From Schlesneria paludicola DSM 18645 (GTDB lineage: Bacteria; Planctomycetota; Planctomycetia; Planctomycetales; Planctomycetaceae): a stretch of 64,000 bases of DNA. The translations under genes were made by a program, and so were the position numbers. The stretch spans positions 62,001-126,000 of the forward strand of contig CAMCMU010000003.1 in NCBI GenBank assembly GCA_945876035.1, written 5' to 3'. Below are positions 11,927 through 43,609 of this stretch, piece by piece (position 1 is the first letter of the stretch; every line of letters begins with the position of its first letter). The notes beneath the pieces are model-generated. The model was given only the letters and a program-made list of their open reading frames with translations, had not been told where the DNA came from and ran no database searches.

Positions 11927-12664
11927 TTATTGATCAACAAACAAGACAACCGCAGTGATATTGTCCTTCGATCCACCGTCGGTGGCCGCCTGCACAATCG
12001 CTTTAGCCGTCTGATCAGGGCATGTTCCCGAAATCAGCAACTCCGCAAGTTTCAGATCGTCAGCGCCACCCGTAACACCATCCGAACAGATCAAATATTT
12101 GTCGTTCACCTCGGCCTTAATTGTCTTAGGCGTCGTTCCTTGGCCACCTTCTTTGCATCCAAGATATCGGTAAAGAACGTTTCGATATCTGTGGTTGGCC
12201 GCTTCCTCAAGGGTCAGCGTACCAGCATCAACTAAGGCCTGTGTCAATGAATGATCTGTCGTCAGTTGCTGCAGTGTTCCGGCGCGCAGCAGATAAACAC
12301 GACTGTCACCCACGCCACCGACAAACAGTGTTTCAACAACTCGAACGACAAAGACCAGTGTGGTCCCCATGTTTTTAAGCTTGGAATTGACTTCGCCCCC
12401 GGCCATGATTTCAATGTTGGCCTCAGAAACAGCATCATTAATCGTTTGGATTGTTTGTTCAGCGGTGGCTTTTTCGAAATCGAGGTGCCTCAGTTTTCGA
12501 GGAATGATTTCCATCGCTAGGCTACTGGCTTTCTCGCCAGCCGACTGACCGCCCATCCCATCGGCCACCAAAAAAAAACGATGGAAGGGATCGTCAATGA
12601 AGTACGCGTCCTCATTGTTGTCACGTTTGCCAATGATGCTCAGATGTCCAACTCGAAACTTCAT
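11927..12664 (-). CDS. PP2C-family serine/threonine protein phosphatase
   Basis: A 245-residue soluble phosphatase of the PPM/PP2C (Stp/PrpC) class. Metal-binding motifs are visible in order: RDNNEDAYF near residue 14, VADGMGG near 34, SDGVTGG near 196 and GGSKDNITAVV near the C-terminus. Such enzymes reverse Hanks-type kinase phosphorylation using two Mn or Mg ions. No kinase gene is adjacent, so the partner is elsewhere. The length equals the bare catalytic domain. Confidence 0.93.
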   Translation of the reverse strand: MKFRVGHLSIIGKRDNNEDAYFIDDPFHRFFLVADGMGGQSAGEKASSLAMEIIPRKLRHLDFEKATAEQTIQTINDAVSEANIEIMAGGEVNSKLKNMGTTLVFVVRVVETLFVGGVGDSRVYLLRAGTLQQLTTDHSLTQALVDAGTLTLEEAANHRYRNVLYRYLGCKEGGQGTTPKTIKAEVNDKYLICSDGVTGGADDLKLAELLISGTCPDQTAKAIVQAATDGGSKDNITAVVLFVDQ

Positions 12665-26370: not shown

Positions 26371-27429
26371 TCATGGCAGGACTTGGACGCCAGTTTTTTG
26401 TTCACGGGAACTTCGATCTTGTGCGTGCTTCGAATGCGTATTCGGTGGGACTCCCAACTTCATTCGGAGTAATCGAATCTGACGTTGAGTTTCTTCGATT
26501 TTCATTGGATTAACGTCGGTTTCGTTGTCGATCTCATACCGCCCCAATTTACGAAGTAATTCAACAATACCACTGGCGACCCAGTCTCGCGTCCCAGGAG
26601 TTCCCTGTTCGAACTGTTTCTCAAGTCTCTGGTTTTTGACCTGATCCACGATCTGATTCGTCAATGCTGGGGAGGGCCAGTTTCGGGGTCCTCCCGGGCT
26701 CCTCTCAGCACTGAAATTAACGAGATAAAGATAGAAAACAAAGTCGGATTGACTTTCATTTATAGGGGGGGTGCGTCCTGCCTCTGTTGCAATGATTTTC
26801 ATCAATTCCGCTAGTTCACTCCGGAATGTTTTGAGGTTCTTCTGCCGCATTTGGAACGGCGTTGAGGAATCGTCATTCGTCGATTCGAGGCCCTGGGATG
26901 TCTTATTCCAGTTGCTCCATTCCGCATGGTTTTTTTTTACCAGCAGCAACTTTTTTACGGAGTCCGTCTCTTGAGTCAGTTCCTCTCGTTGATGCGGTGT
27001 CAGCGTCCTGAGCCACGCCGAGTAATTTTGAAGGACGATGGACAACCTGCCGCCTGATCCGTTGACTTCCTGATGTAGTTCTCGAAGCGACTGTTGTTGG
27101 TCCGCGTTCATTTTCATGAACGAAGTCAGGTTCCTTTTGAGGTGGTCTCGCTCAATTTGAGACATTTTCTCGATCCGTTGCGAATTTTCCGCAAGGATCT
27201 TCGTCGCTTCGGCGGGCCATGCTTGTGGAGCAAAACAAATCCAACTAGCACTCACGAGCACGAGGAAGTTGATGCCATTGATAGAGGGTGTCCATGCGGA
27301 ATCCCACCGCAGGTTCCCTGTCTGACAGGCACCACTTTTTGAACGGCCTGAGGGACGATCTGAAATGCGAAATAGAGCATCGCAAGGAGATCGCGGCGCG
27401 ATTGAGTGCCAACAAGACCGCGAAGCCAT
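26371..27429 (-). CDS. Exported or anchored unknown protein of the sigma-factor operon
   Basis: A 352-residue protein with a hydrophobic stretch at about residues 52-72 (INFLVLVSASWICFAPQAWPAEA), read as a late signal peptide or membrane anchor after an unusually long basic lead. The following 100 residues are helical and charged (QRIEKMSQIERDHLKRNL, TPHQREELTQ), reminiscent of DUF3106-like proteins, and the rest has no known domain. It starts three bases after the anti-sigma stop, so it is almost surely co-transcribed. A true start inside the long lead is possible. Confidence 0.6.
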   Translation of the reverse strand: MASRSCWHSIAPRSPCDALFRISDRPSGRSKSGACQTGNLRWDSAWTPSINGINFLVLVSASWICFAPQAWPAEATKILAENSQRIEKMSQIERDHLKRNLTSFMKMNADQQQSLRELHQEVNGSGGRLSIVLQNYSAWLRTLTPHQREELTQETDSVKKLLLVKKNHAEWSNWNKTSQGLESTNDDSSTPFQMRQKNLKTFRSELAELMKIIATEAGRTPPINESQSDFVFYLYLVNFSAERSPGGPRNWPSPALTNQIVDQVKNQRLEKQFEQGTPGTRDWVASGIVELLRKLGRYEIDNETDVNPMKIEETQRQIRLLRMKLGVPPNTHSKHAQDRSSREQKTGVQVLP

Positions 27430-39876: not shown

Positions 39877-40500
39877 TCAAAAGGCTTGTCTTCCGCGGAT
39901 CGCATCTGCCAACATTTCACGGTTTGCAAACTCTAGCACACTGCCTGTTGCAATGCCGCGAGCAAGTCTTGTGATCTTCACCTTGTCGTTTGCCAGCAGA
40001 TTGGAAATAAAAAGTGCAGTGCCGTCGCCCTCCAAAGTCGGATTCGTAGCCATGAGAATTTCTCGAACACCCTTCGTTCGAACCCGACGAACAAGCGCAT
40101 CGATTGTTAGTTCATCAGGGCCGACGCCGTTCAATGGAGAAATGCGACCACCCAAAACGTGATACAGACCGTGAAAGATCCCAGCGGCCTCCAACGCCAA
40201 TAAATCGCGAGGCTGTTCGACAACACAGACAGACTGAGTCTCCCGACGTGTATCGCGACAAATGTCACAAAACTCTTGTTCCGCCAGATTAAAGCAGAGA
40301 GAACAGGGTCGTACGCAACTCTTCACTAATCGGATCGCGTTTGCCAACTGATTGGCTTCACTCTCAGAACAGGCAAGTAAATGATTTGCTAGGCGTTCCG
40401 CTGATTTGCGGCCAATGCCTGGCAAAGTCGCTAGCCTGTCAATGAGGTTACCGACCGAAATTCCAAACGGATGGCTTGTCGCCTGATCAAACCGTGCCAT
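39877..40500 (-). CDS. recR: Recombination mediator protein RecR
   Basis: A 207-residue RecR, partner of RecO/RecF in loading RecA at gaps. An N-terminal helix-hairpin-helix ([20 protein letters not shown]), a four-cysteine zinc finger ([12 protein letters not shown]) near residues 55-72, and a Toprim domain ([14 protein letters not shown]) are present in the usual order. ATG 40500 has GGGAGA upstream. It ends the dnaX-ybaB-recR set; the gap to ybaB is 123 bases. Confidence 0.97.
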
Positions 40501-40623
40501 CCTGATTCTCTCCCCCGCTTCTACTACTTCGATTGTTTCCATCCCCCCCACCGACCTCGCGGGAAGACACGCATCACGGAAAGCATATCCGAAAAGGTCC
40601 AATTCGGCACAGACGAGAATGTT

Positions 40624-40977
40624 CTATCCTCCCAGTCCCATTCCGCCAAAAATGTCACTCAACCCTGGAATGTTCACTCCCCCGGTCAGTTGTTTCATCT
40701 CCAGTTGCTGCGTCTGGCGAATCTTGTCGAGAGCCTGATTGGTCGCAGCACAGATCAGTTCTTCAATCATTTCGGTATCACCAGACTGTATCAGACTTTT
40801 GTCGATGCGACATTTGGTAAGTTTCAGGTGTCCGTTGACTTCGACTGTCACCAGACCACCTCCCGCCTGCCCCTGACTGCGCATCGCAGCGATCCGTTCC
40901 TTCATCTCTTGGATCTTGCTGCTCATTCCCTGCGCTTGTTTCACTAGCGAAGCGATGGCCGAAAAATCTTTGAACAA
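40624..40977 (-). CDS. ybaB: YbaB/EbfC family nucleoid-associated protein
   Basis: A 117-residue YbaB/EbfC protein, a dimeric DNA-binding nucleoid protein. The core (LVKQAQGMSSKIQEMKERIA, VTVEVNGHLKLTKCRID, LICAATNQALDKI) and the glycine-rich tail (DIFGGMGLGG) match. TTG 40977 is chosen: AGGAG at the end of dnaX lies about eight bases upstream and the protein then begins FKDFSAIASL as in relatives. An upstream TTG at 41007 lies inside dnaX. The gap after the dnaX stop is five bases. Confidence 0.93.
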   Translation of the reverse strand: MFKDFSAIASLVKQAQGMSSKIQEMKERIAAMRSQGQAGGGLVTVEVNGHLKLTKCRIDKSLIQSGDTEMIEELICAATNQALDKIRQTQQLEMKQLTGGVNIPGLSDIFGGMGLGG

Positions 40978-40982
40978 TTCCG

Positions 40983-42779
40983 CTACTCCTGTGGGGTTTC
41001 CGAACAATCGCCGGTACGACCAACTTCAGCGGCCAAAGTTTGAACCTTCCAGCTCTTCACGCGAAACAGTGACATGATGTCTTGCAGGTAGGGGTCGTCG
41101 GGACGTTTGACAAATCCCTCGCCATTCTTTGGCGACACTACGGGAACCGCTCCAGCGGACAGAGTCTGCCGGGGAGCATCGGGCTTGGCCCCCACGGAAT
41201 TCGGTAATGTCCTAAAAGAAACTTTGGTCAAACGGCCAACCAATTCTGAAACGACCGCTTCTAATCGAGCAACCACCTCGGGGCGGTCACAAGACTTTCG
41301 ATCGGAATCATAGTTCAAAGGGAACGAAAATTCCAAGATGTTTGGCCCAATGATTGCTGTTGCCGCCACTCGGGCAAGGTAGGTACCGGTCATATCAGTT
41401 AGACGGGAGATGATCGCTGACTGCAACTCATTTTCGCAACCCGCTTTCCATTCGATCGTCGGCTTAGGGATTGAGTCCACAGGAACGACTGGCGAATGAC
41501 GATCCGAAAGCAACGGCGGTGAATTCGTCTTATCAGCTATGAGCTCGAAGTCATTTTTTTTTTGATCCGGAGGAGTTTCCCGGTTACTGGGGCGAGCCAT
41601 CGCTGGCACGCTGGAAGCCCGCGTGATCACGGCGGGTGACTGACCGGCCTTTAAAGCTGCGATCAATTCGTCCAAATGATCAAGATCTTCAAGCATCGAG
41701 ATTCGCACCAAAGCCAGTTCGGCTAGGGCACGGCCATAGGTCACCCGTTGCATCCGCCCTTTAGACTCGGCCAAGACCTGCATTCCAGCAACGATCGTTT
41801 GCAATCCCCATTGGTTTGCCTGTTCCGCCAGCCGAGTTCGTTGATCAGTCCCGATAGAAAGGAACACGGCGTCCGTCGCGCCGCATGCCGTGACCATCAG
41901 ATCGCGAAAGTACCCCACAAGCTGATCTGTCAAGGCTTCGAGTTGCACACCCTCGCGCAATGCGGCATCTAATCGTCCCAAGGCCAGTGATCGATCGCGG
42001 ACAATTAACGCGTCGACAATCTCAATTAATCTCTCATCGGGAGCCGTTCCCAAGAGGCGATGAACGTCGCCAACGGTAATTCTTTTCGATCCGAATGCCA
42101 ACAGCTGGTCAAACAAGGACTGACTATCGCGCATCGACCCGGCGGCCCGACGGGCCACTAACTCGAATGCCTCAGAATCGACAGAAAATCCCTCGGCTTC
42201 CGCCAACTGACTCAATCGGAGTGAAATGTCGTCGACACAGATGGTGCCAAAGTCGAACCGCTGACAGCGAGACAGTATTGTATCCGGAACCTTGTTCGGC
42301 TCGGTCGTGCAGAACAAGAATTTCACAAGAGGAGGTGGTTCTTCAAGCGTCTTGAGCAACGCGTTGAAGGCCTCTTTGGTCAACATGTGAACTTCGTCGA
42401 TAATGTAAACTTTGTACTTCGATCTCATGGACTTGACGCCGACGCTGGCGCGCAGTGAGCGGATATCGTCGATCCCTCGATTCGATGCTCCGTCAATCTC
42501 CGACACATCGACGTCGTGTCCGGCGGAAATACCGAGACATTGCTCGCAGTCATTGCACGGAACAGCACCTACCGCATGTGGGCAATTGAGGGCCTTAGCG
42601 AAGATGCGCGCCATCGAAGTTTTTCCGACGCCGCGGGCTCCCGAAAAAATATAAGCATGCGCAACGCGCCCCTCGAGAATCGCGTTCCGAAGGGTCTGCG
42701 AAATTCGATCCTGTCCCACAACCTCGCCGAAAGTCTGAGGACGAAATCGCCGAGCCAGCACGGTGTACTGGGCTTCCAT
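40983..42779 (-). CDS. dnaX: DNA polymerase III subunit gamma/tau
   Basis: A 598-residue clamp-loader ATPase. Walker A is in GARGVGKTS near residue 45, a zinc module follows (CPHAVGAVPCNDCEQC), Walker B/sensor region IIDEVHMLTKEAFNALLKTLEEPP is near 120, and SRCQRFDF (arginine finger) near 170. The C-terminal third is the tau-specific part. At codons 406-409 the gene has ten consecutive A residues; a -1 shift there meets UGA at once, which would give a short gamma-like product. ATG 42779 has GAGG nine bases upstream. Confidence 0.96.
   Translation of the reverse strand: MEAQYTVLARRFRPQTFGEVVGQDRISQTLRNAILEGRVAHAYIFSGARGVGKTSMARIFAKALNCPHAVGAVPCNDCEQCLGISAGHDVDVSEIDGASNRGIDDIRSLRASVGVKSMRSKYKVYIIDEVHMLTKEAFNALLKTLEEPPPLVKFLFCTTEPNKVPDTILSRCQRFDFGTICVDDISLRLSQLAEAEGFSVDSEAFELVARRAAGSMRDSQSLFDQLLAFGSKRITVGDVHRLLGTAPDERLIEIVDALIVRDRSLALGRLDAALREGVQLEALTDQLVGYFRDLMVTACGATDAVFLSIGTDQRTRLAEQANQWGLQTIVAGMQVLAESKGRMQRVTYGRALAELALVRISMLEDLDHLDELIAALKAGQSPAVITRASSVPAMARPSNRETPPDQKKNDFELIADKTNSPPLLSDRHSPVVPVDSIPKPTIEWKAGCENELQSAIISRLTDMTGTYLARVAATAIIGPNILEFSFPLNYDSDRKSCDRPEVVARLEAVVSELVGRLTKVSFRTLPNSVGAKPDAPRQTLSAGAVPVVSPKNGEGFVKRPDDPYLQDIMSLFRVKSWKVQTLAAEVGRTGDCSETPQE
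41554..41563 (-). promoter_or_regulatory. A10 slippery tract in dnaX, possible programmed frameshift site
   Basis: On the coding strand the frame reads CAA AAA AAA AAT GAC. Slipping back one base, or adding one A to the mRNA, gives AAA AAA AAA TGA and stops after about 409 residues. E. coli dnaX and Thermus dnaX use such sites to make gamma. No strong upstream enhancer or downstream hairpin was seen, which favours transcriptional slippage of the Thermus kind. Confidence 0.6.
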
Positions 42780-43016
42780 GTCTTTCGCCTCTTCATTTTC
42801 TGGGACGTCAGCCGAAGGACCAAACGTCACTTGAAAAATGTCCGAAACCCAAATTTTCAGAAGACATCACCGACATTCAGCGCCACTTGCGACGATTGAC
42901 GAAACCTGTCGAAACAATCGGCTTCTTCACCTCGCGAAGCTCGATCACCTGCTTTTGTCGCGACGATTTTTCGTATTTTGGTCGCCGTTTCGTTGTTTTT
43001 GTCGCGGAAACGGAAA

Positions 43017-43107
43017 GCCACCCCTTCCACACCCGAAATCTGATGCTTAGGGCTGCTCCGGTTAGGGCCTGACCCGGTTCACACGACCCCGCCGCAGAAG
43101 GGGCAGC
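43017..43107 (-). ncRNA. ffs: Signal recognition particle RNA, small bacterial type
   Basis: Read on the minus strand, GTGAACCGGGTCAGG and AGCAGCCCTAAGC reproduce the conserved SRP domain IV (GUGAACC, GUCAGG, AGCAGC, UAAGC). The outer ends pair over 12 bp: GCTGCCCCTTCT near 43107-43096 with GGAAGGGGTGGC near 43028-43017, counting G-U pairs. The apical ten bases are CCCUAACCGG where E. coli has UCCGGAAGGA, so the tetraloop position holds UAAC and not GGAA. It lies upstream of dnaX on the same strand, as in Bacillus (scr-dnaX-yaaK-recR). The RNA binds Ffh for co-translational membrane targeting. Confidence 0.9.
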
Positions 43108-43609
43108 TTTTCGTTTCCGCATACGAGTTGGGTCAGTATGGGTGACGACCTCAAGAAGTCAAGCGAGTCTCTTCGGGTTTCAGGATCATCGTTTTTTTGT
43201 TGCGGAGTGCCATCGGTGCCAAGTGCCCCCTGTTTGCGGACGTTTTTTCAGGCCTGCGGTCTGCAATCCAACACGAGTTGTGGCGTTGTGAAAAAACGTA
43301 AGCGGGATCTCTCGTTGGATTCTGGCTCGCAGGAACACCGAGTCGCAGCGAGGCCGCTTCCGCCATCAGAGCGAATTCGCAAGTGAGGCGGAGGCGTTTT
43401 TCACTTTAAGATCCTCAATCTTGGCTGAATCTTCGACGACGTATCGCTGCTGCGACTCGCCGGAAAACCAGTCAAAAAACTCAGACACGACGTCTTTTAC
43501 CAGTTGCAGAATCTCCGCGATGATTGAACACTCTTGGAGTGTTGTGAGTCATGCAACAAACAACCGATTGGAGGCAGAAGGTTACATCGCGGTTTAGAAA
43601 AATCCGTTC
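43108..43609. other. Intergenic stretch upstream of SRP RNA
   Basis: About 500 bases, which must include the SRP RNA promoter on the minus strand. No clear -10/-35 pair was placed. Short open frames on both strands lack family features. Confidence 0.4.

Follow-up and report, generated by a model that had tools for sequence, protein, structure and literature searches.

How does a planctomycete dnaX gene come to carry ten consecutive adenines at a point where a shift of reading frame would cut its product down to a gamma-like subunit, and has the run been kept for that effect? In Escherichia coli, dnaX undergoes a -1 ribosomal frameshift at A_AAA_AAG, accompanied by an SD sequence and a stem-loop, and transcriptional slippage was reportedly described for dnaX of Thermus thermophilus by Larsen et al. 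in 2000. The Thermus slippage takes place on a run of nine adenines (A9), according to the portions covered of two papers (PMC1088944, PMC5009743); planctomycetes are unmentioned in those portions. The first-pass annotation of the present locus knew of no description for planctomycetes, and we found none in the open-access listings and passages covered.

The window analysed here is a stretch of 64,000 nucleotides from Schlesneria paludicola DSM 18645. The full-length (tau) frame of dnaX occupies positions 40983 to 42779 of its minus strand and specifies 598 amino acids from an ATG at 42779, with an in-frame GTG upstream at 42830. The gene is identified by Pfam matches (DNA_pol3_delta2, an ATPase lid and DNA_pol3_gamma3) and by PDB matches to clamp-loader gamma/tau chains. 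An A10 tract had been noticed in the gene at 41554-41563, and the sequence agrees: the plus strand reads T10 at these positions, that is, A10 in the coding strand (minus), and the putative slippage tract begins at nucleotide 1217 in the second position of codon 406 and runs into codon 409. The surrounding coding strand is C-A10-TGAC, read CAA AAA AAA AAT GAC; the letters had been given correctly in the first-pass annotation, but the five codons are 406-410 and not 406-409. A TGA at 41551-41553 (minus strand) immediately follows the run (0 nt) and is the first codon read there in the -1 frame, and a TAG at 41537-41539 (minus strand) closes the +1 frame 14 nt past the run, in keeping with the earlier remark that a stop follows soon, as in E. 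coli and Thermus. The TGA is entered with one extra or two missing adenines, the TAG with one missing or two extra. For the run lengths computed in silico, 8 to 13, lengths of 8, 9, 11 and 12 give products of 408, 413, 409 and 414 amino acids, respectively, while lengths of 10 and 13 keep the frame and give 598 and 599. The immediate end foreseen for one extra adenine or a -1 shift is thus what the sequence specifies, at 409 amino acids. Computed masses are 44.6-45.2 kDa for the short products versus 65.3 kDa for full-length DnaX. Directly downstream, a YbaB/EbfC-like gene (40624-41007, minus strand; presumably of that family) overlaps the end of dnaX, and directly upstream lies a gene for the small SRP RNA (43013-43108, minus strand; Rfam RF00169, 44.9 bits). 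An Rfam search for a dnaX frameshift element gave only two chance miRNA matches, far under the cut-off, and a scan of 40500-43300 for promoters and terminators gave 3 and 4 sites versus 1.2 and 3.3 in shuffles.

What kind of protein would end at these stops? Domain III, the collar and oligomerisation domain (PF12169; 41658-42077, minus strand), is retained in the short product; the match spans residues 244-383 of a 607-residue query, equivalent to 235-374 when numbering starts at the ATG (42779). An AlphaFold2 model of DnaX (mean pLDDT 85.2, 35 sequences) aligns along some 360 residues with E. coli clamp-loader chains of known structure, with E values of 7e-32 to 1e-25 among the best 34 matches. 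In this model the A-run falls within a disordered linker, residues 390-436 (41472-41612, minus strand; pLDDT below 50 at residues 390-420 and 422-436), which separates the final domain III helix (382-389) from a small C-terminal domain (449-525). The C-terminal tau part, residues 437-598 (40986-41471, minus strand), is absent from the short product; the models show a single small domain folded within it, at roughly residues 449-525. Foldseek returned no match to this domain with E at or below 0.001; weak matches at ranks 6, 8 and 10 (E 0.016-0.032) were 5fku_E and 5fkv_E, which are chains of the E. coli polymerase III complex and which we take to be tau, and 2aya, the E. coli tau C-terminal domain. 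The best VIA-align match was DnaA domain I (Z 8.7, 77 residues, rmsd 2.5), whose arrangement is common to many of the chains listed. Since the run lies in a linker behind domain III, and the part before it matches E. coli clamp-loader chains, the short product would be a complete gamma-type subunit; Pfam and the AlphaFold2 model both agree with the earlier statement that the shifted product keeps the ATPase and oligomerisation domains and loses the tau part.

The run was followed through 258 genomes, a non-random sample in which no genome was picked for its A-run. It comprises 30 loci and then 27 stretches from relatives of the window, 100 places across the phylum among the matches listed (287 of 294 genomes matched), 52 loci (one already in the set) and 20 chosen places from the family and order of genome G321, and 30 further hand-chosen loci; family f11 was sampled more deeply since one f11 gene looked inverted, with gamma as its zero-frame product. 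Eleven unresolved genomes, with no Walker motif in the ORF or with the gene at a contig end, were dropped, two short genomes and three with A8 were kept as separate classes, and the f11 genome G350 was counted as unresolved, though inverted in appearance. Planctomycetia here means families f1-f10, with 84 genomes, 81 of them resolved; the three others are fragments, two with the run (G013, G031) and one without (G036).

Among the resolved Planctomycetia, an A9 or A10 run occupies the same dnaX linker in 64 of 81 genomes, from 44 of 58 genera and 9 of 10 families, the exception being f7 (0 of 3 genomes). The longest run is nine (37 genomes) or ten (27 genomes) in every carrier, and it lies 334 to 400 codons past the Walker GKT (median 356). 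Synonymous permutation of codons within each gene left a run in a mean of 5.2 genomes and at most 12 (200 draws), versus the 64 observed. Across Planctomycetia dnaX, runs of at least nine adenines number 65 in 29,064 bp of linker versus one in 113,928 bp of other ORF sequence, and the linkers hold no run of nine or more of any other base. Thirteen of the 17 single-contig Planctomycetia genomes in the set have the run, so it is not an assembly artefact. Within the genus of the window and two near genera (15 genomes), third positions are all invariant in one of 537 four-codon segments of dnaX, and that segment is the run; its flanks vary. Runs of at least nine adenines are themselves not rare, with 57 separate ones in the 4.71 Mb genome and three in the window, a count reached in 12 of 100 shuffles, but their recurrence at one place in dnaX of relatives is not chance. 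The other two runs in the window, both A9, lie at 12570-12578 (plus strand), antisense to a 245-aa ORF (11927-12664, minus strand), and at 26930-26938 (minus strand), inside a 352-aa ORF on its coding strand.

Absence or interruption of the run in close relatives had been named in advance as evidence against the site; instead, all 14 readable genomes of the same genus carry it. Thirteen of these are resolved, 12 with A10-TGA and one with A9-GTGA, and the fragment G013 also reads A10-TGA; the fifteenth, G004, is without a dnaX match. The proposed test of nucleotide conservation therefore came out in favour of the site within the genus and across most of the class, but the run is not universal, 17 of the 81 resolved Planctomycetia genomes having no A9/A10 in the linker. 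In one of these, G046 (L046), the run is interrupted by a G (AAAAAGAAG) and the genus-mate G050 (L044) keeps A9, so that the sequences probably record a recent loss. Another, G034, is counted as runless and has an A9 at GKT+474, followed after 22 nt by a -1 stop and after 60 nt by a +1 stop; this A9 is the single run of nine or more found elsewhere in Planctomycetia dnaX ORFs. We also searched the 17 for a substitute in the form of 12 slippery heptamers in phase, a candidate that we discarded: 14, or 15 on another count, have none, two of a single genus (G040, G293) have GGGAAAG with the -1 stop 110-119 nt away, and only G053 combines a heptamer, A7, with a near -1 stop (14 nt on). The runless lineages may make gamma by proteolysis. 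Elsewhere in the sample, A9 runs lie behind the collar region in dnaX of Ignavibacteria, Bacteroidetes (two) and Verrucomicrobia records (L074, L084, L116, L117), and published descriptions may understate how common such sites are. Genome G173 (L144) has tandem runs, A9-TTG-A10-TGA, in one dnaX linker. In G239 (L185, f39) an A9 at GKT+392 is followed 17 nt on by a zero-frame stop, which reflects either a sequencing error or another slip site; its genus-mates G169 and G205 are open, with 556 amino acids.

We propose that the A10 tract is a selected transcriptional-slippage site yielding a gamma-like product beside tau, and give this reading a probability of roughly 0.8. RNA polymerase copying the run would produce mRNAs with 9, 10, 11 or more adenines. 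Those with 10 or 13 would be translated into tau (598 or 599 residues), and those with 8, 9, 11 or 12 would reach a stop 0 or 14 nt past the run, giving gamma-like products of 408-414 residues that, going by Pfam and the structural model, would contain the ATPase and collar domains without the C-terminal tau part. Both subunits would then enter the clamp loader, by analogy with E. coli and Thermus. The same short protein could arise if the ribosome slipped by -1 at A_AAA_AAA within the run, in the manner of E. coli. The stops behind the run discriminate between the two, as -1 ribosomal frameshifting needs one closed off-frame and slippage needs both. A -1 stop starts within 15 nt of the run in 41 of the 44 Planctomycetia genera, which suits either process, but 42 of the 44 also have a +1 stop, useless to a -1 ribosomal slip, no more than 30 nt away, and in 41 of 44 that limit holds for both off-frames at once, compared with 12% of control positions. 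Median stop distances after the run are 4 nt versus 65 in controls for -1 and 11 nt versus 51 for +1 (Mann-Whitney p 2e-21 and 4e-12, values that overstate independence, the genera being related). The run starts at codon position 2 in 43 of the 64 carriers, at position 3 in 19 and at position 1 in two; phase alone is indecisive, because every A9 contains A_AAA_AAA in phase, and for the same reason ribosomal slips could contribute part of the short product. The signals that accompany the E. coli shift are not enriched: SD cores precede the run in 7 of 44 genera versus 20% at control positions (p 0.15 for duplex energy), and the stretch of 55 nt 3' of it folds no better than shuffles that preserve base composition only, not dinucleotides (median z 0.31, 44 genera). 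At the window site itself, where the A10 is followed by TGA, there is no A_AAA_AAG heptamer, none of five SD cores recognisable by eye over the 20 nt that precede the run's final heptamer, and no stable hairpin downstream (z 0.54 and 1.29). Genes of the sister group described below do use A_AAA_AAA with signals like those of programmed frameshifting, but 31 of 43 inverted f11 genes have A7 there, versus the nine or ten of the Planctomycetia run. The window's own genome has genes for both tRNA-Lys(UUU) and tRNA-Lys(CUU) (36 of 42 tRNA matches read, the other six being of the long class by size), and part of PMC5009743 suggests that the presence of two tRNA-Lys may explain the use of polymerase slippage, and not of the E. 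coli mechanism, in Thermus. The inverted genome G292 has both genes as well, with A_AAA_AAA and not A_AAA_AAG as its heptamer, so two tRNA-Lys alone do not bar ribosomal frameshifting. With both off-frames closed, nine or ten adenines in any phase, and SD and hairpin signals unenriched, the comparison favours slippage during transcription, and we regard a ribosomal -1 slip as an unlikely explanation of the site. A 5' nascent-RNA hairpin was considered as a stimulator of slippage and set aside: across 44 genera the fold is stronger than in controls (p 2e-4 to 1e-3), yet the sequence 5' of the run has a G+C content of 70-71% versus 62% and median z values of -0.31 to -0.02 against shuffles of base composition alone, so composition explains the difference.

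Could the run have nothing to do with recoding? A-runs are easily mutated and this one encodes lysines, so that it might be a contingency tract at the DNA level, subject to phase variation, or a by-product of a conserved Lys-Lys motif. Several observations speak against both forms of this idea, which we judge very improbable: the longest run is held at nine or ten in all 64 carriers, its codon phase varies, so that different residues are encoded, synonymous permutation accounts for about 5 of the 81 genomes, and the off-frame stops are kept close. Loss of tau is expected to be lethal, which counts further against a contingency tract. Alternatively, the short protein might be cut from tau by a protease, the run being incidental; gamma arises in this way in Caulobacter, according to part of PMC5009743. 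Proteolysis leaves the conservation at the nucleotide level and the closed off-frames unexplained, and of the explanations considered it seems to us the least probable.

In the order of G321 the arrangement is found turned around. The zero-frame ORF of these inverted dnaX genes encodes gamma and ends 321-352 codons past GKT, and the tau part follows in the -1 frame. This layout occurs in 43 of 48 resolved f11 genomes, 3 of 7 in f63 and 3 of 7 in f54, and in none of those from f66 (0 of 5), f46 (0 of 3) and f71 (0 of 1); the inverted loci of the order are found among L239-L290 (L238 and L239 both represent G321). The -1 extension matches an HMM of the tau C-terminal domain in 35 of 43 f11, 2 of 3 f63 and 3 of 3 f54 genes, and the other eight f11 genes have, by eye, an apparently shortened tail with a similar end motif. 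In all 43 inverted f11 genes a heptamer lies in phase no more than 21 nt from the zero-frame stop, A_AAA_AAA in 31 and G_GGA_AAA in 12. At the f11 and f63 sites an SD core is present in 32 of 40 genera versus 14% of controls, and the downstream fold has a median of -25.8 versus -18.9 kcal/mol (p 1e-12), with a median z of -1.64 against shuffles and values below -2 in 15 of 40. Judged from these signals, inverted dnaX of f11 looks like a case of programmed ribosomal frameshifting. The inverted genes thus serve as a positive control, and the tests that are silent at A9/A10 detect E. coli-like signals where these are present. The three inverted f54 genes (L295, L305, L308) have A10, not A7, and are probably slippage sites with inverted output. 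Single-ORF dnaX genes with nine or more adenines also occur in this order and in the neighbouring families f42, f58 and f61; both off-frames are closed within 30 nt in 17 of 21 such genera. In 20 sister-group genera with A9/A10, SD cores number 3 of 20 versus 8% in controls (p 0.07) and the fold z is 0.52. A few genes looked inverted to the script and were removed by hand: two f27 genomes, where a ybaB-like gene comes next and no tau part was seen, and the f17 genome G065, with no tau HMM match and no slippery motif before the stop. At L233 and L237 (f27) and L208 (f19), dnaX frames of 424-465 codons from stop to stop are followed directly by a ybaB-like gene, no tau part being visible, and these species may be without tau. 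In G103 (L223, f43) the dnaX frame is 380 codons from stop to stop and a tau-like part stands in the +1 frame (HMM E 4e-6), either through a frameshift error or through another kind of shift.

We built a tree with FastTree from the ATPase-to-collar part of 197 DnaX proteins, taking a single sequence for each genus and state and no outgroup. On one side (n=125) 65 genes are of the slippage type, 43 are inverted and 17 are plain; another (n=70) has 3 slippage-type and 67 plain genes, and two plain genes stand beside the side of 125. Family f61, which adjoins the order of G321 in the tree, includes an uncultured Phycisphaerales record. The tree demands at least 28 changes between run and no run, so the run was often lost or gained, and at least nine between inverted and not inverted, counts that cannot separate gain from loss. 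Planctomycetia and their Phycisphaerales-like sister group probably inherited the site from their common ancestor. From this unrooted tree we prefer a single origin before the split, with many later losses and swaps, the alternative being repeated gains within the clade. We lean towards a history in which a site that arose once was later re-engineered, as slippage with tau in frame (A9/A10, in most of the clade), as slippage with inverted output (A10, some f54) and as inverted ribosomal -1 frameshifting (f11 and part of f63). Were the two outputs of a site almost equal, a single indel could switch its in-frame product at little cost. If this history is true, a two-subunit output has been held while the polymerase and ribosome mechanisms, and the default product, were swapped.

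What are the implications for gamma itself? Its importance beyond the few bacteria studied is argued for by selection at the nucleotide level across most of a class. The clade amounts to a natural experiment: related genomes seemingly make one pair of products either through transcriptional slippage or through ribosomal frameshifting, and the many sites open to comparison include some from cultured planctomycetes.

How does the site compare with the systems already described? Slippage in Thermus and frameshifting in E. coli are known; what we add is a putative Thermus-like dnaX site in planctomycetes. Like Thermus, the window has tau in one uninterrupted ORF, here of 598 amino acids, an A-run of at least nine behind domain III (match ending at residue 374), two tRNA-Lys genes and a truncated gamma-like product, in the window a prediction from sequence; near stops stand in both non-zero frames, as they do in Thermus dnaX according to part of PMC5009743. 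It differs in belonging to an unrelated phylum, in its A10 versus A9, and in the position of the run, which is at codon 406 of 598, about two thirds into the gene, versus the seven-eighths reported for Thermus in the portions covered. With E. coli the window shares a short product that stops at once in the -1 frame some two thirds into the gene, but it has no AAG heptamer, SD core or hairpin, its +1 frame is also closed, and it has two tRNA-Lys genes. A GeneTack scan, in the portion covered of Antonov et al. 2013 (PMC3711429), included two Planctomycetes genomes and lists two-ORF dnaX in 17 genes of 12 genera, nine with A10. The window resembles these in its A10 at the gamma/tau boundary and differs in that their tau needs a shift whereas its own is read in the zero frame to 598 amino acids; it is some f11, f63 and f54 genes of the sister group that, being inverted, share the two-ORF layout. 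Taken as a whole, the window site and those of Planctomycetia fit transcriptional slippage of the Thermus type.
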